DNA of 64,000 nt from Candidatus Hydrogenedentota bacterium (GTDB lineage: Bacteria; Hydrogenedentota; Hydrogenedentia; Hydrogenedentales; JAGMZX01): contig JAKQEQ010000153.1 of assembly GCA_029556545.1 (NCBI GenBank), positions 107,348 to 171,347 on the forward strand, read 5' to 3'. Both the position numbers and the translations under genes were made by a program. This document shows positions 3,765 through 29,097 of this stretch, in pieces (the stretch's first letter is position 1; every line of letters starts with the position of its first letter). The notes below the pieces were generated by a model. That model saw only the letters and a list, made by a program, of their open reading frames with translations. It had not been told where the DNA came from and made no database searches.

Positions 3765-4514
3765 TCAAGTCTGAGGAATTGCCGTGCTCAGACGGTGTTG
3801 AACAATTGCTTGAATTTCTTCGATGAAATCGCGCGCGCCCCGCTGGTATTCCAAGACTTGCTCGGCGGAAATGTCCACGAGTTCACCATACTCCGATTCG
3901 ATCGTACGCTCGAAAATCCGATCATAGAATGCGCCGGACTTGGCGCAAACGTCGCCTGAGGCGACGAATTGTTTGCTGAACAGTGCGCGCGTTCCGGCGT
4001 GCTTGCCGGAGTACATCCCATACACATATAGAAGCGCACTTACCGCACGGAAACACGCATAGTAAAGGCAATGCAGCGCTCCATGCCAATGGTGGGCGTC
4101 GAGCAGGTGCGAGGCGGCATCGAGAGCCTCCTTCGCGTTATCCAGGCGTGCTTGCGCCACGGTCTTCTCTTCCGGACTCAGGTCGCGGGTAGTCTTTTCG
4201 CCACACTGCGGAGTATTCGTGGTCACGGAGCGGTAGAACGGCGTCGCGCGCATGAGCGGTTTCGCCCATTCTTCCTTTGTGTGAATTATTGTGGATATAA
4301 GTTCCCCGGATTCGAGTTCGAGACCATACAATGCGTCACGCAGACCGCCTTCGAGGTTCCGCGTCATTTCACGTTCCACTAACACCAGGAAATCCCAATC
4401 CGAGTCGGGCTGGGCGTCGCCGCGGGCGCGCGATCCATAGAGGATGACCTGCGCGTTCGGGTCGAACCGCAGTACCGCGGCCTTCACGGCCTGTATGAGT
4501 TCCTGGTCGGTCAT
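3765..4514 (-). CDS. Fused MNT nucleotidyltransferase-HEPN domain protein
   Basis: 249 residues from the ATG at 4514. The N-terminal minimal nucleotidyltransferase has GSRARGD (27-33) followed by DWD at 39-41, the metal-binding pair of pol-beta-type transferases. The C-terminal half (about 105-245) is a HEPN helical domain with LYYACFRAVSALL and GKHAGTRALF. MNT and HEPN are normally separate antitoxin and toxin genes in which the MNT AMPylates the HEPN RNase; here they form one chain. I see no clear RX4-6H RNase motif, so it may be a non-toxic relative. An earlier start at 4607 would translate the palindrome at 4568-4588, so I reject it. The gene interrupts the leuC-leuD pair and looks less GC-rich than its neighbours. 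Confidence 0.8.
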   Translation of the reverse strand: MTDQELIQAVKAAVLRFDPNAQVILYGSRARGDAQPDSDWDFLVLVEREMTRNLEGGLRDALYGLELESGELISTIIHTKEEWAKPLMRATPFYRSVTTNTPQCGEKTTRDLSPEEKTVAQARLDNAKEALDAASHLLDAHHWHGALHCLYYACFRAVSALLYVYGMYSGKHAGTRALFSKQFVASGDVCAKSGAFYDRIFERTIESEYGELVDISAEQVLEYQRGARDFIEEIQAIVQHRLSTAIPQT

Positions 4515-4567
4515 CGGGCCTTCGCTACTTTCCAATACGACACGCTTCACATTATACGGCATGCTGC

Positions 4568-4588
4568 GGCACGGGCGTCTCGCCCGTG
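4568..4588. repeat. 21-bp dispersed palindrome (copy 1)
   Basis: Core CACGGGCG-TCT-CGCCCGTG preceded by GG. The reverse complement of all 21 bases recurs exactly at 38786-38806 inside a coding sequence. It lies between leuC and the MNT-HEPN gene. Confidence 0.75.
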
Positions 4589-4598
4589 ATTCAGGTTT

Positions 4599-4647
4599 GT
4601 AGTTCAACCTTCAGGTTGTCTTGAAGACAGGCTAAAGCCAGAACTAC
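4599..4647. repeat. Inverted-repeat element between leuC and MNT-HEPN
   Basis: Outer arms GTAGTTC (4599-4605) and GAACTAC (4641-4647) enclose the small dyad AACCT-TC-AGGTT (4607-4618). It lies immediately beside the 21-bp palindrome, so the gap between leuC and the inserted gene is mostly repeat DNA. Confidence 0.5.
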
Positions 4648-4655
4648 GAACGTGG

Positions 4656-6065
4656 TTACTTGTACTCCCATTCGCGGATGTCGACGAAGCGGCCTTTGAT
4701 CGCCGCGGCGACGGCCATGCCCGGGCTGACGAGGTGCGTGCGGCCGCCTTTGCCCTGGCGTCCCTCGAAATTGCGGTTCGAGGTCGAGGCGCAGCGGTCG
4801 CCGGGGTTGAGCCGGTCCTCGTTCATGGCGAGGCGCATGCTGCACCCGGCCTCGCGCCACTCGAAGCCCGCTTCCCGGAACACCTTGTCCAGTCCCTCGG
4901 CCTCGGCCTGTTCCTTCACGTGTTGCGAACCCGGCACAACGAGGGCCTGCTCGATGGCCGCGTGGACCTTGTAGCCCTTCGCGACGGCCGCCGCCGCGCG
5001 CAAGTCCTCGATGCGCGCGTTCGTACACGAGCCCAGGAACATCTTGTTGATCGCAATCTCGGTGATCGGCGTTCCCTCGTCGAGGCCCATGTATTGCAGC
5101 GCCTTTTCATAGGCGAGCCGCGTATTGGCGTCGGCCGTCTCCGCGAGCACGGGCGTACGGCCGCGGACACCCGTCACCATGCCGGGCGACGTGCCCCAGG
5201 TGACCTGGGGCTCGATATTCCGCGCGTCCAGTTCGACGACGCGGTCATACGCGCAGCCGGAATCGGACGCCCACGACAGCCACGACGCCGCGAGCTGCTT
5301 CCACGGCGTATCCTTCGGCAGGTAAGGACGGCCCTCGAGGTACGCCGCCGTCTTCTCGTCCGGCGAGATGAGCCCCGCGCGCGCGCCCGCCTCGATGCTC
5401 ATGTTGCACACGGTCATGCGCCCTTCCATCGACAACCCGCGGATCGCCTCGCCCGTGTACTCGATGACGTAGCCGGTGCCGCCCGCCGTGCCGATCTCGC
5501 CGATGATCGCCAAAACGATGTCTTTCGCCGTAATGCCGCTGGGCAGCGCGCCGCCGACCCGCACCTCCATCGTCTTCGAGGGCTTCTGGAGCAGCGTCTG
5601 CGTCGCGAGCACGTGCTCGACCTCGCTGGTGCCGATGCCAAACGCCAGCGCGCCGAACGCGCCGTGCGTCGAGGTGTGCGAATCGCCGCAGACGATGGTC
5701 ATGCCCGGTTGCGTCAGCCCGAGTTCCGGCCCGATGACGTGGACGATGCCGTTGCGCCGGTCGTACATGTCGAAGAGCGCGATGCCGGACTCCTTGCAGT
5801 TGGCCGCGAGTTTCTCGACCTGCTGCTTTGACAGGGGGTCGGCGATGGGCCGTGCTCGGTCCGTCGTCGGGATGTTGTGGTCCATCGTCGCGAAGGTCAA
5901 CTCGGGGCGCCGCACGGTGCGGCCCGCGAGGCGCAGCCCCTCGAACGCCTGCGGCGACGTTACCTCGTGGACGTAGTGCCGGTCGATGTACAGAATCGCG
6001 TCTTGACCCTCGGGCGCATGGACCAGATGGGCCGCCCATATCTTCTCGTAGATGTTCTTCGGCAT
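4656..6065 (-). CDS. leuC: 3-isopropylmalate dehydratase large subunit (one cluster Cys replaced)
   Basis: 469 residues from the ATG at 6065, close to E. coli LeuC (466). The aconitase-fold signatures are present: [12 protein letters not shown] with Cys347, and [17 protein letters not shown]. The protein carries the substrate-activating [4Fe-4S] cluster. The canonical CSMCLAMN motif reads CSMRLAMN here, so Cys408 is kept but the third cluster ligand is Arg411 (codon CGC at 4833-4835). Either the cluster is held differently, the enzyme is impaired, or there is a base error (TGC to CGC). The upstream in-frame extension to 6125 overlaps tag and is not used. Confidence 0.93.
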
Positions 6066-6091
6066 GAAATCCTGCAACCTTTCCCGCGGCG

Positions 6092-6670
6092 TCACCGCGC
6101 CGCCAGTTCCTTGAAACGAAAACAATCCGTCGTATGATCGTTTACCAGACCCGTGGCCTGGAGATGAGCGTAAATCACCGTGCTGCCCACGAAGCGAAAG
6201 CCGCGTCGTTTCAGGTCCTTGCTCACCGCGTCGGACAAGGGCGTTTTCGCGGGCAAGTCCCGCATCGACTTCCAGCGGTTGACGACGGGCGCGCCGTCGA
6301 CGAAGCGCCAGATGTAGGCGTCGAAACTGCCGAACTCCTCTTGCACGCGCAGGAACATCCGCGCGTTGTTCACCGCCGACGTGATTTTGAGCCGATTGCG
6401 GATCAGCCCTCGGTCAAGGAGGAGCGCTTCGATCTTCGCGTCCGTGAATCGCGCGATCTTATGCGCATCCCAGTTGCAGAACGCCTTGCGGTAGTTCTCG
6501 CGTTTGCGCAACACCGTCGCCCAACTCAAGCCCGCCTGCGCCGCTTCGAGCGTGAGGAACGCGAAGTGTTTCCGATCGTCATGTACCGGCACGCCCCACT
6601 CCTCGTCATGGTAGCGCACATAGAAGTCCGGTTGCCCCGCGGCCCAGGCACAGCGTGTCCGTTCCTTCAT
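6092..6670 (-). CDS. tag: DNA-3-methyladenine glycosylase I
   Basis: 192 residues. It has the family N-terminus CAWAAG and [13 protein letters not shown], the conserved [12 protein letters not shown] helix, and the C-terminal HTTDCF that supplies His and Cys of the zinc site. It excises 3-methyladenine from alkylated DNA. It lies between hypB (87 bases upstream) and leuC (26 bases downstream) on the same strand, which suggests read-through of the whole minus-strand block rather than a functional link. ATG at 6670 is preferred to the TTG one codon earlier. Confidence 0.95.
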
Positions 6671-6757
6671 CAATCCATATCGCCTCTTGTGTTATGTAAC
6701 AAACCCGTATTCCGCCCGACCTTCGGACAGGCCGCGTGCGGTCCCTGTTCCCGAGGG

Positions 6758-7417
6758 TCAGCGGACGGCGTCCGCGGGGCCGAGCGCGCGGAGCCAGTCG
6801 GCCCAGGCGTCCACGCCTTCGCCGGTGCGGCACGAGACATCGAGCACGGGCACGCCCGGCTGTAGTTTCTCGACGTACTCGCGGAATCGGGCAACGTCAA
6901 AATCGACGTGCGGCAGGAGGTCAATCTTGTTGAGGACCACGAGGTCCGCGCACCGGAAGAGCTTCGGGTACTTGGCGGGCTTGTCGTGGCCTTCGGTCAC
7001 GCTGACGACGGCGACCCGCTTGTCTTCGCCGAGGTCGAACGAGACCGGACACACGAGATTGCCGACGTTCTCGATGACCAGGAGGTCGCCCGGGGCGAGG
7101 TCGAGTTGTTCGAGGGCGCGCAACACGAGGTTGGCCTCGAGGTGGCAGCCGCCCGCCGTGTTGATCTGCACCACCGGCGCGCCCGTTGCGGCGATGCGTT
7201 CCGCGTCGAGCGTGGTGTCCGGGTCGCCTTCGATCACCTGGATGCGCCGCGCCGCGCCGAGCGCCTCGACGGCCCGCTCGATGAGCGTGGTCTTGCCGGA
7301 GCCCGGCGCGCTGATCATGTTGACGGTCGCCACGCCGAGGGGACGCAAGCGATCGCGCACCGCCTGCGCCAGTTCGTCATTGACTTTCAGCACCTTCTCA
7401 ACGACCCGGATTTCCAC
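6758..7417 (-). CDS. hypB: Hydrogenase maturation GTPase HypB
   Basis: 219 residues. P-loop APGSGKTTL (about 37-45), switch region with ENVGNLVCP, and guanine-specificity motif NKIDLL are all present. HypB delivers nickel with HypA to the large subunit of [NiFe] hydrogenases. The N-terminus lacks the His-rich stretch and the CXXCGC metal site found in some HypBs, so it is a short form. The start is GTG at 7417, preceded by GAGGAGAG. It follows hypA by 20 bases. Confidence 0.95.
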   Translation of the reverse strand: MEIRVVEKVLKVNDELAQAVRDRLRPLGVATVNMISAPGSGKTTLIERAVEALGAARRIQVIEGDPDTTLDAERIAATGAPVVQINTAGGCHLEANLVLRALEQLDLAPGDLLVIENVGNLVCPVSFDLGEDKRVAVVSVTEGHDKPAKYPKLFRCADLVVLNKIDLLPHVDFDVARFREYVEKLQPGVPVLDVSCRTGEGVDAWADWLRALGPADAVR

Positions 7418-7437
7418 GGGATTCTCTCCTCATTGCG

Positions 7438-7785
7438 TTATGTCTCATCGAGCACGACCGATTCCAGCACCAGTTCGTCCCCGGCCAGAACGCGCCCGCC
7501 GGCGGCCGCGCACTCCGGGCAGACCCAGAACAGGTCCTCCGGCTCGAATTGCGCATCGCAGGCCGCGCAGGCGATCCGCGCGGGAACGGCGCGCCACTCG
7601 AACGCGGCGTCTTCCGCGAGCGTGCCTTGCACCGCGGCTTGAAAGGCGAATTCGAGGACCTCGGGCTCGACCTGCTGCAGCGCGCCGATGGCGACACGGA
7701 CCCGCGAGACCGGCAGATGGCCGTGCTCGACCGCGATGGCGAGGGCGCGCTCGAGAATGTTCTCGACTATGCTGAATTCGTGCAT
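7438..7785 (-). CDS. hypA: Hydrogenase nickel-incorporation protein HypA
   Basis: 115 residues. The N-terminal nickel site MHE is intact, and a zinc ribbon is formed by Cys73/Cys76 (CAAC) and Cys89/Cys92 (CPEC). HypA hands nickel to the hydrogenase large-subunit precursor together with HypB, which follows immediately. It begins 6 bases after the maturation protease stop, a tight operon arrangement. Confidence 0.95.
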   Translation of the reverse strand: MHEFSIVENILERALAIAVEHGHLPVSRVRVAIGALQQVEPEVLEFAFQAAVQGTLAEDAAFEWRAVPARIACAACDAQFEPEDLFWVCPECAAAGGRVLAGDELVLESVVLDET

Positions 7786-7791
7786 GGACCG

Positions 7792-8376
7792 TTACTTCGC
7801 GGGCGCGCCGTTGCGGGCTTTCGTCGACAAGTGCTCGAACAGCGCGCGCTCCGCAAGGCTGCGGATTTCCGCGAGCGCCCGCGAGGTCAACTCCTGCAGG
7901 GCGCGCCGCGCGGGCGTCGAGAGGTCGTCGCCTTCGTTAAACGAAGCGCCCTCGAGACTGTACACGACCATGCGCGCCGGCAGCCGCCCGATGCGCCGCG
8001 CGGCCTCGATGGCCTCCGCGATGCCGAAGGGATGCCCGAACGAACGGAAGAACCGCCGTGGCACTTCTTCGACGGTGGCCTCGAACCGGTGGAGCGTTCC
8101 GGCCGGCGCGCCCGACCGGGACGCGCCGAAAAGAAAGACGCCGTCTCCGGGCGCCCATAGCTGCATCAGCGCCGCGCCCTCGCCGCTGTGCTCGAAGATA
8201 CGAACCGCTTCGGGCCACCGCGCGCGCACGGCGCGGGCCACGTGCAGCCCCACGCTTTCGTCGCCGTGGTCGGCGCGCCCAACGCCAATCGTGAGAATCC
8301 GTTGCACCCGATCCGGCACGCGCGGGCGCGTGCGGGTGTTTGCGCCATTGACGGTGGATTCCGGTGACACGGCCAT
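7792..8376 (-). CDS. [NiFe]-hydrogenase maturation protease (HycI/HyaD-like)
   Basis: 194 residues. The N-terminal motif GVGRADHGDESVG matches the GxGNxxxxDDGxG nickel-sensing loop of hydrogenase maturation endopeptidases, which cut the C-terminal tail of the large subunit after nickel insertion. A conserved His is not obvious in the second half; YSLEGASF aligns roughly with the family strand. No large subunit is encoded nearby, so its substrate must be elsewhere or lost. It lies 30 bases after the gamma-like gene. ATG at 8376. Confidence 0.82.
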   Translation of the reverse strand: MAVSPESTVNGANTRTRPRVPDRVQRILTIGVGRADHGDESVGLHVARAVRARWPEAVRIFEHSGEGAALMQLWAPGDGVFLFGASRSGAPAGTLHRFEATVEEVPRRFFRSFGHPFGIAEAIEAARRIGRLPARMVVYSLEGASFNEGDDLSTPARRALQELTSRALAEIRSLAERALFEHLSTKARNGAPAK

Positions 8377-8406
8377 GCCGATATTTCCGCTTTGGCTCCT
8401 CGCGCG

Positions 8407-9237
8407 TTACTCGCGCGCGGCGAGAAACTGCTCGACCTCGTCGAAACGGAATACAGGGCCGGTAAGGCCGCTCTTTTCCGCGTCGCAGGTCGCAATCTCG
8501 CGCACGCCGCGCTTCAGGTCGCGCTGCATGTAGACAAACTGCCAATCCTTGCGCACGCCGCGCCGGTGCAGCGCCTCGACGGCGTAAGTCATCATCACCT
8601 CCGGGCCCGCGATGTACGCGACGGCGTAGTACGGGTCGAACGGGGCGCGCGGGATAAGGTTCGTGAACACGCCCACGGGGCCGTGCCAGTCGCGCGACGC
8701 GCGATCGACCGTGACGAGCACCTCCATGTCGAAGCGGCCCCGCCACCGCTCGAGTTCCTTGCGATAAAGGATGTCCTCGGGCGTGCGCGCGCCATACAGG
8801 ACCGTGGTGTGGCCGTAGCGCTCACGCTGCCGGATAAGGGCGTGCACCAGGGGACGCATGGGCGCCAGCCCGATGCCGCCCGCCACAATCACCACGTCGT
8901 TTTCCTCCGCGGGTTCGAGGGGCCAGCCCGCGCCGAAGGGGCCGCTCACCGTGATCTCCGCGCCCGCGTCCAGCCCGCACAGCGCCTCGGTCACGCGACC
9001 GACCGCGCGCACCGTGTGAAGGAGCACGTCCGGCGCGTCAGGATGCACGCAAATCGCCATGGCGGCGGCCCCCACGTTGTTTACGTGAACCATATTGTAC
9101 TGGCCCGGCGCGAAATCCGGGACCGCGCCGCCGTCCGCGCGGACCAACTCCAGCGTGGCGGTATCCGGCGTCTCGGGGACTACGGACCGGATGCGGTAGA
9201 TTGTCTTGTTTGCCTTTTCCTGTTGCGGCGTACTCAT
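8407..9237 (-). CDS. Hydrogenase/sulfhydrogenase gamma-like FAD-NAD(P) oxidoreductase, Fe-S site degenerate
   Basis: 276 residues. The ferredoxin-reductase-like FAD domain has the pattern around PGQYNMVHV (about 44-52), and the NAD(P) domain has VAGGIGLAPMRPL (about 118-130) and IAGPEVMM. The nearest known family is the gamma subunit of group 3b [NiFe] hydrogenases and AsrB-type sulfite reductases. Those proteins end with a four-Cys [2Fe-2S] site of the type KCGVGxCGHC; here the region reads KRGVREIATC, and only one Cys is in register before GPVFRFDEVEQF. The cluster is therefore probably absent. The gene follows the cNMP protein by 20 bases. Confidence 0.85.
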   Translation of the reverse strand: MSTPQQEKANKTIYRIRSVVPETPDTATLELVRADGGAVPDFAPGQYNMVHVNNVGAAAMAICVHPDAPDVLLHTVRAVGRVTEALCGLDAGAEITVSGPFGAGWPLEPAEENDVVIVAGGIGLAPMRPLVHALIRQRERYGHTTVLYGARTPEDILYRKELERWRGRFDMEVLVTVDRASRDWHGPVGVFTNLIPRAPFDPYYAVAYIAGPEVMMTYAVEALHRRGVRKDWQFVYMQRDLKRGVREIATCDAEKSGLTGPVFRFDEVEQFLAARE

Positions 9238-9257
9238 GCTGTTGCCCTTTCAGGACG

Positions 9258-9722
9258 CTAGGCGTACATGTCGCTCATTTGGAGCAGGACCGCGGAGAGC
9301 CTTCCCGTGAAGACCGCCAGGAACCGCTTAATGATCTCGTAGCCGAACTCATGATCGGCCTCGAGGGCGTCGCGGAAGGCGGCGGCGTCAATCGCCAGCA
9401 TGCGCGTTAACTGCGTGGCCCGGGCGTCGAAGCGCCACTGATACGGCGGCACCAGCCAGGAACACCCGAGGACACCGTGCCGGTCGATGGTGTGGAGGAC
9501 AATGGACCCTCCCCGGTGGGGCTCGAAGACCTCGAGGGCAACCTGGCCCTGGCGGATCAGATAGCAGTGGGTCGCCTGACCGCCCGCCCGGAATACGTAC
9601 TCGCCCGCCGGGAAACTCTCGAGGATAACGTGGGGCGTCAGCCGCGCCAGATACTCCGGTGGTATTCCCTTGAAGAACTCGTGTTCGGCCAACAGTTGTT
9701 TGATCTCGTCCACGGATGACAT
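9258..9722 (-). CDS. Cyclic-nucleotide-binding domain protein, no DNA-binding domain
   Basis: 154 residues, one cNMP beta-roll: FPAGEYVFRAGG, YLIRQGQVALEV, then a phosphate-binding-cassette-like stretch around LGCSWLVPP, and a C-terminal helical hinge. There is no helix-turn-helix, so it is not a CRP-type activator. From general knowledge, such proteins often precede bacterial group 3b hydrogenase genes and may tune the enzyme. It is the first gene of the minus-strand block. Confidence 0.85.
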   Translation of the reverse strand: MSSVDEIKQLLAEHEFFKGIPPEYLARLTPHVILESFPAGEYVFRAGGQATHCYLIRQGQVALEVFEPHRGGSIVLHTIDRHGVLGCSWLVPPYQWRFDARATQLTRMLAIDAAAFRDALEADHEFGYEIIKRFLAVFTGRLSAVLLQMSDMYA

Positions 9723-14903: not shown

Positions 14904-15389
14904 CTAATGCGTTTGTTGACGCGCGGGCGCGCCGCCCGTCCGCCGCAGCGCCTTGCGCAGTTCGACGTTCTCCGCGTTGGCTTTCTCAAGGCGCTCGCTG
15001 AGAATGTGGATCACGTTCAGGAGCAGCCGCACCGCAACGTGCTTCTCGAGAATGTTGTTGATGCTGCGCTCATCGAGCGTGAAGACTTTCGCGGGGGTGA
15101 TGGCCGTAGCGCTGGCGATGCGCGGCCTGCGATTCAGCACCGCCATCTCTCCGAAAGCATCACCGACTTCGCATTTCGCAATGAGTTCGCTCTTGTTGTA
15201 GATGCCCACCTCGCCGCTCAAGACGATGAAGACATTCGTGCCCAGCATACCCTCGTGGAAGATGGTCTGGTTCTCGTGAAAGTGCAGCACGTTGCCGCAG
15301 TGAAGGATGAACTCCACCTCCTCCGGCGACAGTCCATGGAATATCTTCACCTTCTCCGCGTATTTCCTGTACTTGCTTTCGTCGCTCAT
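14904..15389 (-). CDS. Cyclic-nucleotide-binding domain protein
   Basis: 161 residues. One cNMP-binding domain: FHENQTIFHEG, FIVLSGEVGIY, and a well-formed phosphate-binding cassette GDAFGEMAVLNRRPRIAS. A C-terminal amphipathic helix (about 125-150) follows, with no HTH. The cassette is more canonical than that of the 9258-9722 protein, so cAMP or cGMP binding is plausible. The start at 15389 has GAGAGGA upstream. It is divergent from the GspE/PilB gene. Confidence 0.85.
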   Translation of the reverse strand: MSDESKYRKYAEKVKIFHGLSPEEVEFILHCGNVLHFHENQTIFHEGMLGTNVFIVLSGEVGIYNKSELIAKCEVGDAFGEMAVLNRRPRIASATAITPAKVFTLDERSINNILEKHVAVRLLLNVIHILSERLEKANAENVELRKALRRTGGAPARQQTH

Positions 15390-15585
15390 GGACAATCCTC
15401 TCGGTCCGATAATTCGATGTCCTGCGCACCCGTAGACTTTCGCCATTATCTTACCTTAATCCGCTACGCTTCGCCACTCGCCGCGCCGAACAGAGAAATT
15501 ATGCGCAATTTGCTTTGGCGTGTGGGGCGCATTTACCATCAGCGCGCGAAATCGCGTGGCGCCAGGACGGCGGGAGGGGCATTAG

Positions 15586-22503: not shown

Positions 22504-24276
22504 TCAGACTTTGGCGCGCTCGTGGTAGTGGGTGTGCAGGAGTTCGTGAGACTTCTTGCTGTTGGGCTTTCCGAGAAACTCCTCGTAGATGTGTTTGATC
22601 TCGGGGTTCTCGTGGGACTTGCGGAGCGTCTTGCCCTCGTCTTCCTTGTAGATGGCCTGGATGCGCGCGAGCCGCGTTTCGTTGGTGGTGAAGCGCGGCT
22701 GGCCGCCGCCGCCGATACAGCCGCCGGGGCAGGTCATGATCTCGATGAAGTGGTAGGTCGAGAGCCCTTCGCGGACGCGCTCGATGAGTTGGCGCGCGTT
22801 GCCGAGGCCGTGCGCGACGGCGGTGCGCACCGTGACGCCTTTGAGGAAGGCCCACTCCGGCGTGGTTTCCTCGATAGTGACGGCGGCCTCCTTGATGCCT
22901 TCAAGCCCGGCGATGGGCTTGACGTGCAGGTCTTCGAAGGGGAACGGCTTGCCGGTCACGATCTCGTAGACGGTGCGCAGGGCCGCCTCCATGACGCCGC
23001 CGGTGTTCGCGAAGATGTCGGCTGCGCCGGAGGACATGCCGATAGGCGAATCCATCGTATCGTCGGGCAGGCGGTCGAAGTCGATGCCGGCCTGTTTGAT
23101 CATGCGGCCGAGTTCGCGCGTGGTGAGGACGTAATCGACGTCCTGGACGCCGCTGGCGTTCATCTCGGGGCGCTGCGCCTCGAATTTCTTCGCGGTGCAG
23201 GGCATGACCGAGACGACGATCATGTCCTCGGGCTTCTTGCCGATCTTCTCGGCGTAGTAGGTCTTGGCGATGGCGCCGAACATCTGCTGCGGGGATTTGC
23301 ACGTCGAGACGTTCGCCAGCATGTCCGGGTAGAAGTACTCGATGAACTTGATCCACCCGGGCGAGCAACTGGTGAACATGGGCAGCGCCACGGGCTTGCC
23401 GTCGACCAGGGCGTTCTTCAGGCGCGTCAACAGCTCGGTGCCTTCTTCGAGAATGGTCAGGTCTGCCGCGAAGTTCGTGTCGAACACGGCGTCGAAGCCG
23501 ATTCGGCGCAGGGCCGAGACCATCTTGCCGGTGACGAGCGTGCCGGGCGGATAGCCGAAGCATTCGCCGAGCGCGGCGCGGATGGCGGGGGCCGTCTGCA
23601 CGACGACGGTCTTCGTCGGGTCGTCGAGCGCTTCCCACACGTCCTGGATGTGGTCGCGCTCGGTGATCGCGCCGACGGGGCACACTGCGGCGCACTGGCC
23701 GCACTGGACGCAAACGATGTCGTGCAGGTTCAGGTCAAAGGCCGGGCCGACGACGGTGGCGAAACCGCGATTCTGGGGGAAGATGCCGCCGACGCCCTGA
23801 ACCTCGCCGCAGACGGTGACGCAGCGGCGGCAGAGCACGCACTTGCCCGTGTCGCGGATCAGCGCGGGCGTGGAGTCGTCGACGTAGCGCGTGCTCTTGG
23901 CGCCCACGTAAGTGATGTCGTTGATGCCGAGATCGCGGGCGAGCGCCTGGAGTTCGCAGTCGTCGTTGCGCTCGCAGGTCTGGCAGTCGCCCTGGTGGTC
24001 CGACAGGAGCAGTTCGACGACGGTGCGGCGTGCGCCGCGGGCGCGCTTGGTGTTCGTGTGGACGACCATGCCGTCGGCGACCGGCGTGACGCAGGAGGCG
24101 ACGAGCGTGCGCGCGCCCTGCACCTCGACGAGGCACACGCGGCACGCGCCGATGGCTTGCACGTCTTTCAGGTAGCATAAGGTCGGCACTTTGACGCCCG
24201 CCTGTTTTGCGGCGTCGAGAATGGTCGTTCCGGCGGGGACTTCCACCCGGACGTTATCTATGGTTACGGTGGGCAT
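22504..24276 (-). CDS. hydA: [FeFe] hydrogenase catalytic subunit, NADH-dependent type (HydA/HndD)
   Basis: 590 residues, modular M3-type. [2Fe-2S]: Cys34, 45, 48, 62. His-Cys3 cluster: His94, Cys98, 101, 107. Two [4Fe-4S]: Cys146/149/152/156 and Cys189/192/195/199. H-cluster: L1 TSCSPGW (302-308), L2 MPCTAKKFE with Cys360, L3 EIMTCPGGCIGGGGQP with Cys516 and Cys520. A small-subunit-type tail closes the protein. It makes or oxidises H2. The residue after the L1 ligand Cys304 is Ser305, where CpI-type enzymes have the proton-relay Cys. It is the last gene of rex-hydC-hndB-hydB-hydA. Confidence 0.97.
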   Translation of the reverse strand: MPTVTIDNVRVEVPAGTTILDAAKQAGVKVPTLCYLKDVQAIGACRVCLVEVQGARTLVASCVTPVADGMVVHTNTKRARGARRTVVELLLSDHQGDCQTCERNDDCELQALARDLGINDITYVGAKSTRYVDDSTPALIRDTGKCVLCRRCVTVCGEVQGVGGIFPQNRGFATVVGPAFDLNLHDIVCVQCGQCAAVCPVGAITERDHIQDVWEALDDPTKTVVVQTAPAIRAALGECFGYPPGTLVTGKMVSALRRIGFDAVFDTNFAADLTILEEGTELLTRLKNALVDGKPVALPMFTSCSPGWIKFIEYFYPDMLANVSTCKSPQQMFGAIAKTYYAEKIGKKPEDMIVVSVMPCTAKKFEAQRPEMNASGVQDVDYVLTTRELGRMIKQAGIDFDRLPDDTMDSPIGMSSGAADIFANTGGVMEAALRTVYEIVTGKPFPFEDLHVKPIAGLEGIKEAAVTIEETTPEWAFLKGVTVRTAVAHGLGNARQLIERVREGLSTYHFIEIMTCPGGCIGGGGQPRFTTNETRLARIQAIYKEDEGKTLRKSHENPEIKHIYEEFLGKPNSKKSHELLHTHYHERAKV

Positions 24277-24312: not shown

Positions 24313-27300
24313 CTAGCGCGCACTCGGGACCATTTCCTCGCGGTAATCGCAACGGAGGCAGCGGCGCGCCTCGCGGACCGCCGTCTCTTCGACAAAGGCC
24401 ACTTCGACCTCGTCGAAGTTCATCGCGCGCGCGTCCACGGGGATGAGATTCATGGCGGCGCGCGGCGCTTCCGAGGGATCGGCGTCCGGGTCGAACGCGG
24501 TGTCGACCTGATAGAGTTCCCGCCAGAAGGCGTGCTCCTCCCCGGTCAGGTACTGGTCGATGCCCACGGCGGCCCGTTCGCCCGCGCCGATGGCCTGCAC
24601 GACGGAAGACGGCCCGTCCGAGGCGTCGCCGCCGGCGAACAACCACTCGAGGGAGGTCTGGGCAGTGACTGCGTCGGCCCAGATGTAATTTTTCGCGTTC
24701 AACTTGACCTGCAGGCCGTCCAGGAGCGGCTTCGTCTCCAGCTTCTGGCCGATGGCCGCGATGACCTGGTCCGCGGGCTCGACGAACGTGGCGTCGCCGC
24801 AGACTTCGGGGCGGCGACGTCCGCTGCTGTCGAATTCGCCGAGGGACATGTGGTTGCAGGACACGCCTGCGACCTTGCCCTTTTCGAGCACGACCTCCTG
24901 CGGCGCGATCAGCGTCTTCAGAAAGACGCCTTCTTTCTCGGCCTCCTCGATTTCCTCGGCCCAGGCGGGCATTTCGGCGCGGGTGCGGCGGTAGAGGACT
25001 GTGACGGTTTCCGCGCCGAGCCGCACGGCCGTGCGCGCGGCGTCGATGGCCGCGTTGCCGCCGCCGATGACGACGACGCGCTTGCCGACCTTCGCCGTGC
25101 CTTGCAGGTTGTACGCGCGCAGGAACTCGATGGCGTCGGTCACGCCGTCCGCTTCTTCGTTCTTGATGCGCAGTCCCGAGCCCTTGGGCGCGCCCACGCC
25201 GAGGAACACGGCTTCGTAGCCCTCGTCGCGGAGTCCCTGAAGCGTGAAATCGCGCCCGAGCGCGCTATTGCACTCGATATCGACGCCCATGCGCTCGATC
25301 ATCGTGATTTCGCGTTCGATCTCGGGCCGCGGCAACCGGTAGGACGGGATGGTCTGCACGAGCATGCCACCGGGCTTCGGCGCGGCCTCGAAAACCTTCG
25401 GCTTGTAGCCCAGCCGCGCGAGGAAGAACGCACAGGACAGGCCCGCGGGACCCGCGCCGACAATCGCCACCTTGCGCTTTGCGTTGTCCGCGTTCTCGCG
25501 GACCTCCGGCAGTTGGACGGTGTCTTCCTGCTCGACCATGAAGCGCTTGATGCCGCGGATGGCCACGGGCGCATCGAGGTTGCAGCGGCGGCACTTGGCC
25601 TCGCAGGGATGGAAGCATACCCGCGCGCATATGGATGCGAAGGGATTGCGGTCGCGATGGACGCGCAGCGCTTCGGCGAAGCGCTTCTCGCCGACGAGCG
25701 AGACGAAGCCCGGCACGTAGACGCCCGCGGGGCACGCGCTCATGCACGGCGCGCGCACCAGCGCGGCGCACACGCCCGCCGGGCACCGCTTTTCGCGGAT
25801 GTGTACGTCGAACTCGTCGCGGAAGTGGCGGATGGCGGACAGTACCGGGTTCGGCGCGGTCTGGCCGAGCCCACACAGGGAGGCGGCCTTGATCTGCTCG
25901 CCGAGTTCGATGAGCCGCTCGACGTCGCCCTCGACGCCGCGGCCTTCGCAGATGCGCTCGACGATTTCGAGCATGCGCTTGGTGCCGATGCGGCAGGGGA
26001 TGCACTTGCCGCACGATTCATCCTGGACGAAATCGAGGAAGAAGCGGGCCATATCGACCATGCAGGTGTCGTCGTCCATGACGATCAGCCCGCCGGAGCC
26101 CATGATGGCGCCGAGTTCCTGTAGGGACTCGTAATCGACGGGGACGTTCAGGTGCTGCTTCGGGATGCAGCCGCCCGAGGGGCCGCCGATTTGGGCGGCT
26201 TTGTATTCCTTGTTGTTCGGAATGCCGCCGCCGATGTCGAAGATGATCTCGCCGAGCGGCGTGCCGACGGGCACCTCGACGAGCCCGGTGTTGTTCACCG
26301 CGCCGGCCAGGGCGAAGACCTTCGTGCCCTTGCTCTTCTCGGTGCCGATCGCGGCGAACCAGGCCGCGCCCTTGAGGATGATCATGGGGATGTTCGCGTA
26401 GGTTTCGACGTTGTTCAGGAGCGTGGGCTTCTCCCAGAGGCCCGCGATGGCGGGGAACGGCGGCCTCGGGCGGGGCTCGCCGCGCTTGCCCTCGATGGAC
26501 CGCATGAGCGCGGTCTCTTCGCCGCAGACGAACGCGCCGGAGCCCATGCGAATTTCGAGGTCGAACGAGAAATCCGTGCCCATGATGTTCTTGCCGATGA
26601 GCCCCAACTCGCGGGCCTGCTCGATCGCGAGGCCGAGGCGCTCGACGGCGAGCGGATACTCGGCGCGCACGTAGACGTAGCCCTCGTCGGAGCCGATGGC
26701 GTAGGCCGCGATGGCCATCGCCTCGATCACGCTGTGGGGGTCGCCTTCGAGCACGCTGCGGTCCATGAACGCGCCGGGGTCGCCCTCGTCCGCGTTGCAC
26801 AGCACGTATTTCTTGTCGCCGGGGGCCTTGCGCGTGAAGGACCACTTCATGCCCGTCGAGAACCCGGCGCCGCCACGGCCGCGCAGGCCGGACTGCTTCA
26901 CCTCCTCGACGACCTGATCGGCGGTCATCTCGGAGAGCGCCTTGGCCAGCGCCTGGTAGCCGTCCCGCGCGATGTACTCCTCGATGTTTGTCGGGTCGAT
27001 GGCCCCGCAATTGCGCAGCACGATCTTTTGTTGCTGCTGGAAGAACTCGATCTCCTGCAGCGCGGGGATGACCTGCTCGGTGGTCGCGGTCTTGAAATTC
27101 AGCCGCTCGACGACGCGCCCCTTGAGCAGGTGCTCCTCGACCAGGTGGTCCGCATCGGCAGGCTTCACGCCTTGGTAGAAGACACCGTCGGGGTACACCA
27201 CGATGACCGGGCCGATGGCGCAGGGGCCGAGACACCCGGTGTGCACGATGTTGATTTCCTTATCCAGACCGTGCTTGCGCAGGGCCTGCTGAATAGCCTC

Positions 27301-27375
27301 GCTGAGTTCGAGGGCACCGGAGGCCACGCACCCCGCGCCCGCACAAACCAGCACATGGGATCGCACGTAATTCAT
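24313..27375 (-). CDS. hydB: HydB (NuoF-like) fused to a GltD-like FAD/NAD(P) oxidoreductase
   Basis: 1020 residues. In order: a thioredoxin-like [2Fe-2S] domain (Cys11, 16, 48, 52); the NADH/FMN 51 kDa module with LRGRGGAGFSTGMKW (about 163) and the ESCGKCIPCRIG cluster motif (about 485); then a GltD-type N-terminal Fe-S domain (Cys-rich, about 565-640) and a two-dinucleotide-fold flavoprotein with VGAGPAGLSCAFF (about 678) and VVIGGGNAAIDAA (about 785). The first part takes NADH electrons to FMN for bifurcation to HydA. The GltD part is normally a separate subunit or absent and could add an NADPH site. 36 bases separate it from hydA. Confidence 0.93.
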   Translation of the reverse strand: MNYVRSHVLVCAGAGCVASGALELSEAIQQALRKHGLDKEINIVHTGCLGPCAIGPVIVVYPDGVFYQGVKPADADHLVEEHLLKGRVVERLNFKTATTEQVIPALQEIEFFQQQQKIVLRNCGAIDPTNIEEYIARDGYQALAKALSEMTADQVVEEVKQSGLRGRGGAGFSTGMKWSFTRKAPGDKKYVLCNADEGDPGAFMDRSVLEGDPHSVIEAMAIAAYAIGSDEGYVYVRAEYPLAVERLGLAIEQARELGLIGKNIMGTDFSFDLEIRMGSGAFVCGEETALMRSIEGKRGEPRPRPPFPAIAGLWEKPTLLNNVETYANIPMIILKGAAWFAAIGTEKSKGTKVFALAGAVNNTGLVEVPVGTPLGEIIFDIGGGIPNNKEYKAAQIGGPSGGCIPKQHLNVPVDYESLQELGAIMGSGGLIVMDDDTCMVDMARFFLDFVQDESCGKCIPCRIGTKRMLEIVERICEGRGVEGDVERLIELGEQIKAASLCGLGQTAPNPVLSAIRHFRDEFDVHIREKRCPAGVCAALVRAPCMSACPAGVYVPGFVSLVGEKRFAEALRVHRDRNPFASICARVCFHPCEAKCRRCNLDAPVAIRGIKRFMVEQEDTVQLPEVRENADNAKRKVAIVGAGPAGLSCAFFLARLGYKPKVFEAAPKPGGMLVQTIPSYRLPRPEIEREITMIERMGVDIECNSALGRDFTLQGLRDEGYEAVFLGVGAPKGSGLRIKNEEADGVTDAIEFLRAYNLQGTAKVGKRVVVIGGGNAAIDAARTAVRLGAETVTVLYRRTRAEMPAWAEEIEEAEKEGVFLKTLIAPQEVVLEKGKVAGVSCNHMSLGEFDSSGRRRPEVCGDATFVEPADQVIAAIGQKLETKPLLDGLQVKLNAKNYIWADAVTAQTSLEWLFAGGDASDGPSSVVQAIGAGERAAVGIDQYLTGEEHAFWRELYQVDTAFDPDADPSEAPRAAMNLIPVDARAMNFDEVEVAFVEETAVREARRCLRCDYREEMVPSAR

Positions 27376-28434: not shown

Positions 28435-29097
28435 CTATCGCGTCCCGCCGGCGCCGCTCGCCAGCGCTTCGCGCTCGCATTGGCGGGCGAAGAAGGCGAC
28501 CTTGTCCAGCGCCGAAGTCAGGTCCACGTTCTCGATGTATACGTGCGTCGGGCCGGGCAGTCGCACGGGCGCGAAGTTCAGCAACCCCCGTACCCCCGCG
28601 TCACACAAGAGCTCCGCCACGTTCTCGGCCTGCGCCGCCGGCGTCGCGATGATGCCGATGGAAATCCCGAGTTCCGAGACGACGCGCGGCAGGGCCTCGA
28701 CGGCGTGGCACGGACAGCCCGAGAACTCGCGGCCGACCTTCGCGGGGTCCTTGTCGAACGCCGCCCGGACGCTCAGACGCCTCCACCTGCCCGCGAAATG
28801 CGCCAGGAGCGCCCGCCCCAGGTTTCCGACGCCCACCAGCGCGACCTTCTGAAAGGTGGGCGGGTAAAGGAATTCATCGATGCTGTCCAGCAGGTCGCCG
28901 GCATCGTAACCCCCGTTCGGCACGCCCACACAGCCGAGTTGCATGATATCCCGGCGGACCTGCGCAGCGTTCACGCGCGCCATCGCGGCCAGTTGATGGG
29001 AGAAGATCATGGCGGCGCCTTCGGCGCGGACTTGGAGGAGGATGCGCCGGTAGAGGCTGAGCCGCTCGATCGTTTTTTCAGGCACCATGGGTTGCAT
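28435..29097 (-). CDS. rex: Redox-sensing transcriptional repressor Rex
   Basis: 220 residues. Winged helix at about 1-80 (QVRRDIMQLG recognition region) and a Rossmann NAD(H) domain with VALVGVGNLGRALL (about 86-99), AFDKDPAKVG, and IIATPAAQA. The C-terminal helix swap region ends in FARQCE. Rex senses the NADH/NAD ratio and represses fermentative and hydrogenase genes. Here it leads the hydrogenase operon, so NADH build-up should derepress H2 production. A Rex-like dyad lies upstream at 29109-29126. ATG 29088, three codons later, is an alternative start. Confidence 0.95.
   Translation of the reverse strand: MQPMVPEKTIERLSLYRRILLQVRAEGAAMIFSHQLAAMARVNAAQVRRDIMQLGCVGVPNGGYDAGDLLDSIDEFLYPPTFQKVALVGVGNLGRALLAHFAGRWRRLSVRAAFDKDPAKVGREFSGCPCHAVEALPRVVSELGISIGIIATPAAQAENVAELLCDAGVRGLLNFAPVRLPGPTHVYIENVDLTSALDKVAFFARQCEREALASGAGGTR

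Follow-up and report, generated by a model that had tools for sequence, protein, structure and literature searches.

What a genome keeps of a hydrogenase after losing the enzyme itself is the question raised by a block of five genes in the window analysed here, a stretch of 64,000 nucleotides from Candidatus Hydrogenedentota. The block (positions 6758-9722, all genes in the same direction on the minus strand) encodes a cyclic nucleotide monophosphate (cNMP)-binding-domain protein, a gamma-like NAD(P)/FAD protein, a HycI-type protease, HypA and HypB. Its host is a draft genome of 6.1 Mb and 96% completeness (G000, contig C192). Comparison with relatives suggests that the block is what remains of a group 3b-type [NiFe]-hydrogenase operon, from which the beta, delta and alpha subunit genes were most likely deleted before two species of the genus split. 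Our preferred reading, with a probability of roughly 0.6, is that HypA and HypB still mature other hydrogenases of the cell, and that the cNMP protein and the gamma-like protein, called pseudo-gamma below, persist as nucleotide-binding proteins that do not transfer electrons.

The stand-alone cNMP-binding-domain protein (9258-9722, PF00027) is followed after 20 bases by pseudo-gamma (8407-9237), a homologue of the 3b hydrogenase gamma subunit with an NAD_binding_1 domain; its best NCBIfam models, AsrB and cytochrome-c3-hydrogenase gamma, both scored far below cut-off. Then comes a gap of 30 bases (8377-8406), where relatives have delta and alpha, and a protein of the HycI/HybD type, the pseudo-protease (7792-8376), which matched TIGR00072 above its cut-off and the Pfam HycI model 3 bits below its cut-off. 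HypA (7438-7785) matched PF01155 above cut-off and TIGR00100 2 bits below cut-off, and HypB (6758-7417) matched TIGR00073 with E 3.5e-77 and 258.7 bits against an equivalog cut-off of 121.2. No match to beta, delta or alpha was found within the block at E 1e-5. An initial annotation of this DNA had described both the 3b-type gene order without these three genes and the 30-base distance between gamma and protease, and both are borne out. Chance open reading frames were ruled out, because all five genes match families and stand in the same order in a second species.

This second species of the genus (G001, locus L071), the only other genome of the genus among those searched, carries the same five genes with a gap of also exactly 30 bases, and the outer neighbours of the block differ between the two genomes. 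A close gamma (E 1e-50 or better) was present in 11 of 68 phylum genomes, namely these two and nine others (G004, G008, G018, G020, G030, G032, G039, G058 and G066). Delta and alpha lie directly behind gamma in all nine others and beta is present in eight; in the ninth, G030, the contig stops within the cNMP gene. Where contigs are long enough, the order beta-cNMP-gamma-delta-alpha-protease-hypA-hypB is seen in G004, G008, G018 and G020, and from cNMP onward in G030, with hypF behind hypB in all three loci scanned (G008, G018 and G020). In G039 the contig stops after the protease and the one hypB of the genome is found at another place, G032 had no hypB, and no protease or hyp matches were seen in the 12 kb read of G066. 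The latter locus has, immediately after its 3b-type delta and alpha, a second pair of these subunits (L185 8202-10109) that is about 30% identical. Measured against the phylum order, the block in the window has five remaining genes in place and three missing.

The subunits of the relatives had the sulfhydrogenase models ShyA, ShyB and ShyD as best NCBIfam matches, below the equivalog cut-offs, and all eight alphas read carry RICGIC (L1), DPCISC..H (L2) and a tail of 9-12 residues. Hydrogenase types 3b, 3c and 3d are assigned in this study from gene content and the best models under cut-off. More distant phylum gammas (about 26-36% identical, for example those of G021, G054, G014, G044, G002 and G047) were used as rows of one alignment only.

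Control loci from GTDB were chosen by two peptide patterns, and the best 80 of at least 567 confirmed ones were taken, so the control set favours typical gammas. There are 86 distinct controls; L094 and L128 duplicate G058 and G020 and are counted among the 88 control loci and among the 75 with at least 2.2 kb downstream of gamma (10 in the phylum and 65 others), not among the 86. Delta and alpha were both present in 64 of the 65 non-phylum loci. The exception is L163 from a metagenome-assembled genome of Calothrix sp. MO_192.B10. This locus (3975-6804) has beta, cNMP and a gamma with all four cysteines, and in the next 6 kb after gamma delta and alpha were unmatched and CHAT- and RTX-type (RTX-repeat) genes stand instead; it is possibly a second, independent gutting in a cyanobacterium. 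In annotated plasmid operons of Rhodococcus sp. DK17 and Burkholderia savannae, the 4Fe-4S, cNMP, FAD/NAD(P), delta-like, large-subunit and protease genes are consecutive. The suggestion of the initial annotation that the structural genes were deleted is thus supported by the nine in-phylum carriers, in which the catalytic genes stand beside gamma, by the 64 controls and by the two plasmid operons. Among the relatives compared, none with a complete 3b enzyme was found to keep the gamma/protease pair apart from the structural genes.

Relocation of the missing subunits was rejected within both drafts. A beta query from G008, which finds its own genome and four other control genomes, gave no beta elsewhere in G000 or G001 at E 1e-5, and the PF00374 search found no 3b-like alpha elsewhere in either draft. 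Searches for leftover fragments of beta, delta and alpha gave weak matches only, which were not counted (best E values: 0.088 in the window, and in G001 0.051 within hypB and 0.007 at a site some 3 kb beyond the block). A deletion at the level of the lineage is indicated because G001 has the identical stripped block, and a single loss event because otherwise invariant gamma positions carry substitutions common to both species. The first step would be the deletion of beta, delta and alpha from an operon with the full phylum order, before the species split.

To describe what happened to the remaining proteins, we called a position invariant when at least 95% of the controls whose match is long enough share one residue (86 for gamma, 78 for cNMP, 55 for protease, 11 for HypA and nine for HypB, out of 86), which makes the term weakest for HypA and HypB, and we called it changed when either G000 or G001 differs. 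No invariant was changed in the cNMP protein (0/10), HypA (0/10) or HypB (0/45), and 4 of 11 were changed in the protease and 24 of 73 in pseudo-gamma, in one or both species.

The changes in pseudo-gamma are located in the flavin-type N-terminal domain (11/26) and the C-terminal Fe-S part (10/15) much more than in the NAD(P) domain (3/32; Fisher p 0.005 and p 0.0001, respectively). In the former [2Fe-2S] loop (residues 240-259; 8461-8520, in a low-confidence part of the structure model), the ligands C243, C248 and C259, each found in 86/86 controls, are replaced and C251 is kept; the four-cysteine pattern is intact in all 88 control loci. The flavin-side motif (residues 54-63; 9049-9078) is changed in both genomes, with S61 (86/86 controls) replaced by A and S63 (85/86) by C in both species, and Cys210 (86/86) is also Ala in both. 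The equivalents of Ser61 and Cys210 help hydride transfer in ferredoxin-NADP reductases, which belong to this fold class. The idea of gamma as an electron carrier fails, because the [2Fe-2S] and other defining residues are lost.

The NAD(P)-binding domain (PF00175, 5.8e-15) keeps 29 of 32 invariants and an intact GGIGLAP. The AlphaFold2 model of pseudo-gamma had a mean pLDDT of 85.9, the well-predicted fold excluding the N-terminus and loop 240-259, which is below 50 (blocks 39-40). In an intact control gamma the loop region is at 54-74; this contrast has the expected direction and carries little weight, because the values are low in both proteins. The best structural match of the model is the gamma subunit of Pyrococcus furiosus SHI (PDB 9nf0/9nez; TM 0.83), which is likewise the best solved match of the gamma profile.

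Between G000 and G001 the NAD(P) domain is 92% identical (10/120 residues differ) and the flavin-type domain 73% (27/100; Fisher p 0.0003). The proportion of nonsynonymous differences (pN) is 0.046 in the former and 0.185 in the latter, and this ratio of 3.98 was reached by none of 102 control pairs of intact gammas at 68-93% identity (highest 3.58; 97 within 0.7-1.9), which is a ranking and not a p-value, as control pairs share sequences. Control pairs at 80-85% identity, the band of G000 and G001, had ratios up to 1.61. To judge from the residues kept and lost, pseudo-gamma may bind NAD(P)H without electron transfer.

The protease has lost defining residues as well. Asp84, present in 55/55 controls, is Gly in G000 and Ser in G001, and Asp40 (55/55) is Glu in G000 and Gly in G001, so that the window protein keeps E40 and H115 without D84, and G001 lacks both D40 and D84. 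Escherichia coli HybD has three Ni ligands (E/D, D and H), and Asp84 aligns with the HybD Asp that is one of them. Because of these losses, the standard endopeptidase role is unlikely for the pseudo-protease.

HypA and HypB are the parts whose present use is easiest to propose, and both are sole copies in G000. Exactly one hypB above cut-off was found in 18 of 19 genomes surveyed, and in G004, G008, G018 and G020 this single hypB is that of the 3b block. PF00374 found only two loci in G000. The 3c-like one, C34, has a VhuA-like large subunit beside a small subunit and Fe-S/flavin genes; the 3d-like one, C124, has HoxFUYH-like genes and its own diaphorase. The one PF00374 locus of G001 encodes a HoxH 94% identical to that of G000. 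A C-terminal extension is expected in enzymes with Hyp-dependent maturation, and both other large subunits of G000 have C-terminal residues past the last motif. HypD was found on contig C100. Since hypA and hypB are sole copies in a genome with two other [NiFe] loci, HypA and HypB likely serve the remaining 3c-like and/or 3d-like [NiFe]-hydrogenases. The initial annotation had proposed to look in the rest of the genome for hyp genes and such a large subunit, and had offered the alternative that the parts now serve a hydrogenase encoded elsewhere; the search found HypD and the two large subunits just described, and the alternative is likely for HypA and HypB, fails for gamma as electron carrier and is unlikely for the protease as a standard endopeptidase, the defining residues of both being lost. 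Retention of hypA and hypB at the 3' end for maturation of these enzymes would be the second step.

The G000/G001 alignments of cNMP, gamma, protease and hypB are free of gaps and the frames are open. The ratios of nonsynonymous to synonymous substitution rates (dN/dS) were 0.09 for cNMP, 0.21 for gamma, 0.28 for protease, 0.24 for hypA and 0.10 for hypB, as pairwise Nei-Gojobori type counts with dS of 0.67-0.99 and not a branch test. The corresponding pN/pS was 0.16 for cNMP, 0.11 for the gamma NAD domain, 0.15 for hypB, 0.47 for the flavin-type domain and 0.40 for the protease. If there was a single early loss, the divergence between the two species accrued after the enzyme was lost. Loss of an enzyme with retention of its Ni-insertion pair is ordinary; what is unusual is that three companions, two of them without catalytic sites, are still under purifying selection.

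Upstream of the block we found an identical 14-mer in both species, TTGCGGGTATACTT, which lies on the minus strand 110 nt before the cNMP start in G000 (9846-9833) and 109 nt before it in G001, in sequence that is otherwise largely diverged. It looks like a -10 element with an upstream extension, and a sigma-70 consensus scan did not pick it. Its position agrees with a single transcript that runs from cNMP through hypB.

Of the 86 distinct control loci, 80 have a stand-alone cNMP protein, and in 69 of the 75 of these with enough upstream sequence its gene stands between beta and gamma. The window copy is the only one in G000 at E 1e-8. In the open-access literature we found little on a stand-alone cNMP protein with group 3b hydrogenases. 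According to the accessible portions of two papers, the cNMP-domain protein of a 3b cluster was named HoxI in 2025 (PMC12319191), and HoxI of the soluble hydrogenase of Cupriavidus necator is a dimer on the diaphorase, called an NADPH activation site (PMC3702609). In G033, the one among the other surveyed genomes whose hydrogenase type was worked out, a relative of the window protein opens an operon of HoxE-, HoxF-, HoxU-, HoxY- and HoxH-like genes, followed by protease, hypA, hypB and hypF; therefore such a cNMP protein can accompany a 3d-like enzyme in this phylum. From G033, the HoxI precedent and the sole copy in G000 together, it follows that cNMP and pseudo-gamma might act on Hox. Identity with HoxI was not reached by sequence, and the plasmid search described below did not support homology to the biochemically studied C. 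necator HoxI.

In our preferred reading, the third step would be the retention of cNMP and pseudo-gamma as nucleotide-binding proteins without electron transfer. In a fourth step the pair would come to respond to nucleotides as a regulatory or scaffold module, acting possibly on the Hox-like 3d enzyme that both species have. A wider form of this idea can be put forward only tentatively, and we would sooner bet against it than for it: the cNMP protein, pseudo-gamma and pseudo-protease may together make up a module without catalysis that senses the state of NAD(P)H and/or cyclic nucleotides and controls how active, or how far matured, the remaining hydrogenases are, through HypA/HypB of the same operon or through direct contact with the 3d Hox-like complex. 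The absence of the genes in both species, the sole copies, the site loss, the open frames and the constraint are observed; maturation of other enzymes by HypA/B, binding of NAD(P)H, a regulatory role and its target are what we infer from them.

Several points weigh against the preferred reading. The comparison is limited to two species, both with draft genomes, and the dN/dS values are pairwise counts. The VGxVT positions, which usually lie on the FAD phosphate side, are kept in gamma, so that it may still bind flavin. The domain ratio has one close control pair (3.58), and three of the four top control ratios (2.07, 2.27 and 3.58) came from the most similar pairs (86-91%), so that the ratio tends to rise with similarity. 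Of the 19 genomes surveyed, ten (G006, G007, G009, G013, G014, G015, G019, G021, G024 and G026) have [NiFe] large subunits by PF00374 and lack a cNMP protein of this kind at E 1e-8, and the additional copies that G018 and G039 carry stand among non-hydrogenase genes. C. necator was absent among 24 plasmid records matching at E 1e-3, the presence of pHG1 in the collection being unchecked. A physical tie of cNMP or pseudo-gamma to the Hox enzyme is without support.

The extra copies are stand-alone cNMP proteins of the same family (L179-L183; C90 and C177 in G018, and C249, C337 and C510 in G039). They have as neighbours a PAS-histidine kinase, type II secretion genes, a pyridine nucleotide oxidoreductase, alpha-2-macroglobulin and an acetyltransferase, and therefore the family is not limited to hydrogenases. 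The window itself has a second, different stand-alone cNMP-domain protein of 180 aa (14904-15446), whose gene faces, on the opposite strand, a 648-aa open reading frame that is secretion/pilus-ATPase-like by eye.

The main rival is that only hypA and hypB matter, and that cNMP, gamma and protease, which lie between the promoter and hypAB, stay open because stop codons there would be polar, while their protein sequences drift freely. We consider this unlikely, though several points favour it: the 3' end holds the sole copies of hypA and hypB, both species have the promoter-like motif ahead of cNMP, the catalytic sites of gamma and protease are lost, and the flavin-type domain and the protease are the least constrained parts. 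A constraint on the frame only would give pN close to pS, however, and the values of cNMP and the gamma NAD domain are comparable to that of hypB. Removing the three genes would presumably also suit hypA and hypB equally. Polarity accounts more readily for the protease and the flavin-type domain than for cNMP and the NAD(P) domain.

The preferred reading must also be set against a new enzyme, in which the gamma-like protein, its flavin site altered and its partner a new one, would be a catalytically active NAD(P)H oxidoreductase. Its well-predicted fold close to SHI gamma, the conserved NAD domain and some kept FAD-side positions are consistent with this. Ser61 and Cys210, found in every control, are nevertheless both Ala in the two species, three cluster cysteines are gone and the block has no other redox gene, which makes a new enzyme quite improbable.

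It is even harder to believe that the parts work in trans, with gamma carrying electrons and the protease trimming the large subunit of the 3c-like or 3d-like enzyme. Both other large subunits extend past the last motif, and no TIGR00072 protease match was found at the C34 locus, which would leave room for such a service. The [2Fe-2S] ligands and the Ni-ligand Asp are lost in both species, however, and C124 encodes its own diaphorase as well as a protease that retains the ligand residues. For its two hydrogenase loci G009 has just one protease gene, so a dedicated protease is not required by every enzyme, and the idea that the window protease is kept for the C34 enzyme is weakened by this case. 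An assembly or binning artefact can be dismissed, since the two genomes, drafts in many contigs as they are, agree in architecture, 30-base gap and shared substitutions on two contigs, of 175 kb and 33 kb, whose surroundings differ.

Outside the five genes, the neighbours of the block are unrelated to hydrogenase: upstream a plus-strand PAC2-family gene, and downstream a methyladenine glycosylase gene and then a leuC-like gene (by eye). An Rfam scan of the whole window gave no match at gathering scores. A side observation concerns L070 (7435-12582), which begins some 4.9 kb to the left of the window and overlaps its first 234 bases. It encodes a molybdopterin oxidoreductase with a NuoG-type N-terminus and a NuoEF-type fusion; the two resemble an NAD-linked formate dehydrogenase and have glutamine synthetase and an ammonium transporter nearby.

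About 13 kb from the block there is an [FeFe]-hydrogenase (22504-24276, PF02906), next to a NuoF/GltD-like fusion of 1020 aa (24313-27375). A protein at 28435-29097 has the domains of Rex. Replacement of the 3b enzyme by the [FeFe]-hydrogenase is possible and would make its loss understandable. In the accessible portion of a study of Hydrogenedentota hydrogenases, groups 3b, 3c, 3d and [FeFe] were reported, with non-canonical bifurcating [FeFe]-hydrogenases in the phylum and [FeFe] and [NiFe] enzymes rarely in one genome (PMC11406978). The [FeFe]-hydrogenase, the decay of the cofactor sites, the persisting selection, the second species and the shared 14-mer motif all go beyond the initial annotation.

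A lineage that keeps the cNMP protein and the gamma NAD(P) domain under selection without the enzyme is a natural experiment. It allows a possible regulatory role to be told apart from electron transfer, and it reveals which parts are of use in the absence of this enzyme's H2 chemistry. It also means that gamma, protease or Hyp matches alone do not prove a 3b hydrogenase in a genome. If the wider idea of a non-catalytic module is true, the nucleotide-sensing shell of a hydrogenase has outlived its enzyme.

No description of a gutted 3b locus was found among the open-access titles and abstract openings searched or in the accessible portion of PMC11406978. Unlike the pattern given there, G000 combines an [FeFe]-hydrogenase with two [NiFe] loci and a gutted 3b block. 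The pseudo-protease resembles the HycI/HybD endopeptidase (1cfz) in scoring above the TIGR00072 cut-off and aligning to HybD over 148 residues, and differs from it at the ligand position, where the Asp of 55/55 controls is Gly in G000 and Ser in G001. In comparison with C. necator HoxI, no 3b enzyme remains in the window to activate; the likeness lies in a small cNMP-domain protein that stands alone and belongs to the gene set of an NAD(P)-linked hydrogenase. Another of the closest known systems is the group 3b or bifunctional sulfhydrogenase (P. furiosus SHI, 9nez/9nf0; ShyABCD/HydABGD); the operon of the relatives has beta, gamma, delta and alpha of its kind, whereas the block in the window has only the gamma, without its cluster ligands and conserved flavin-side residues.

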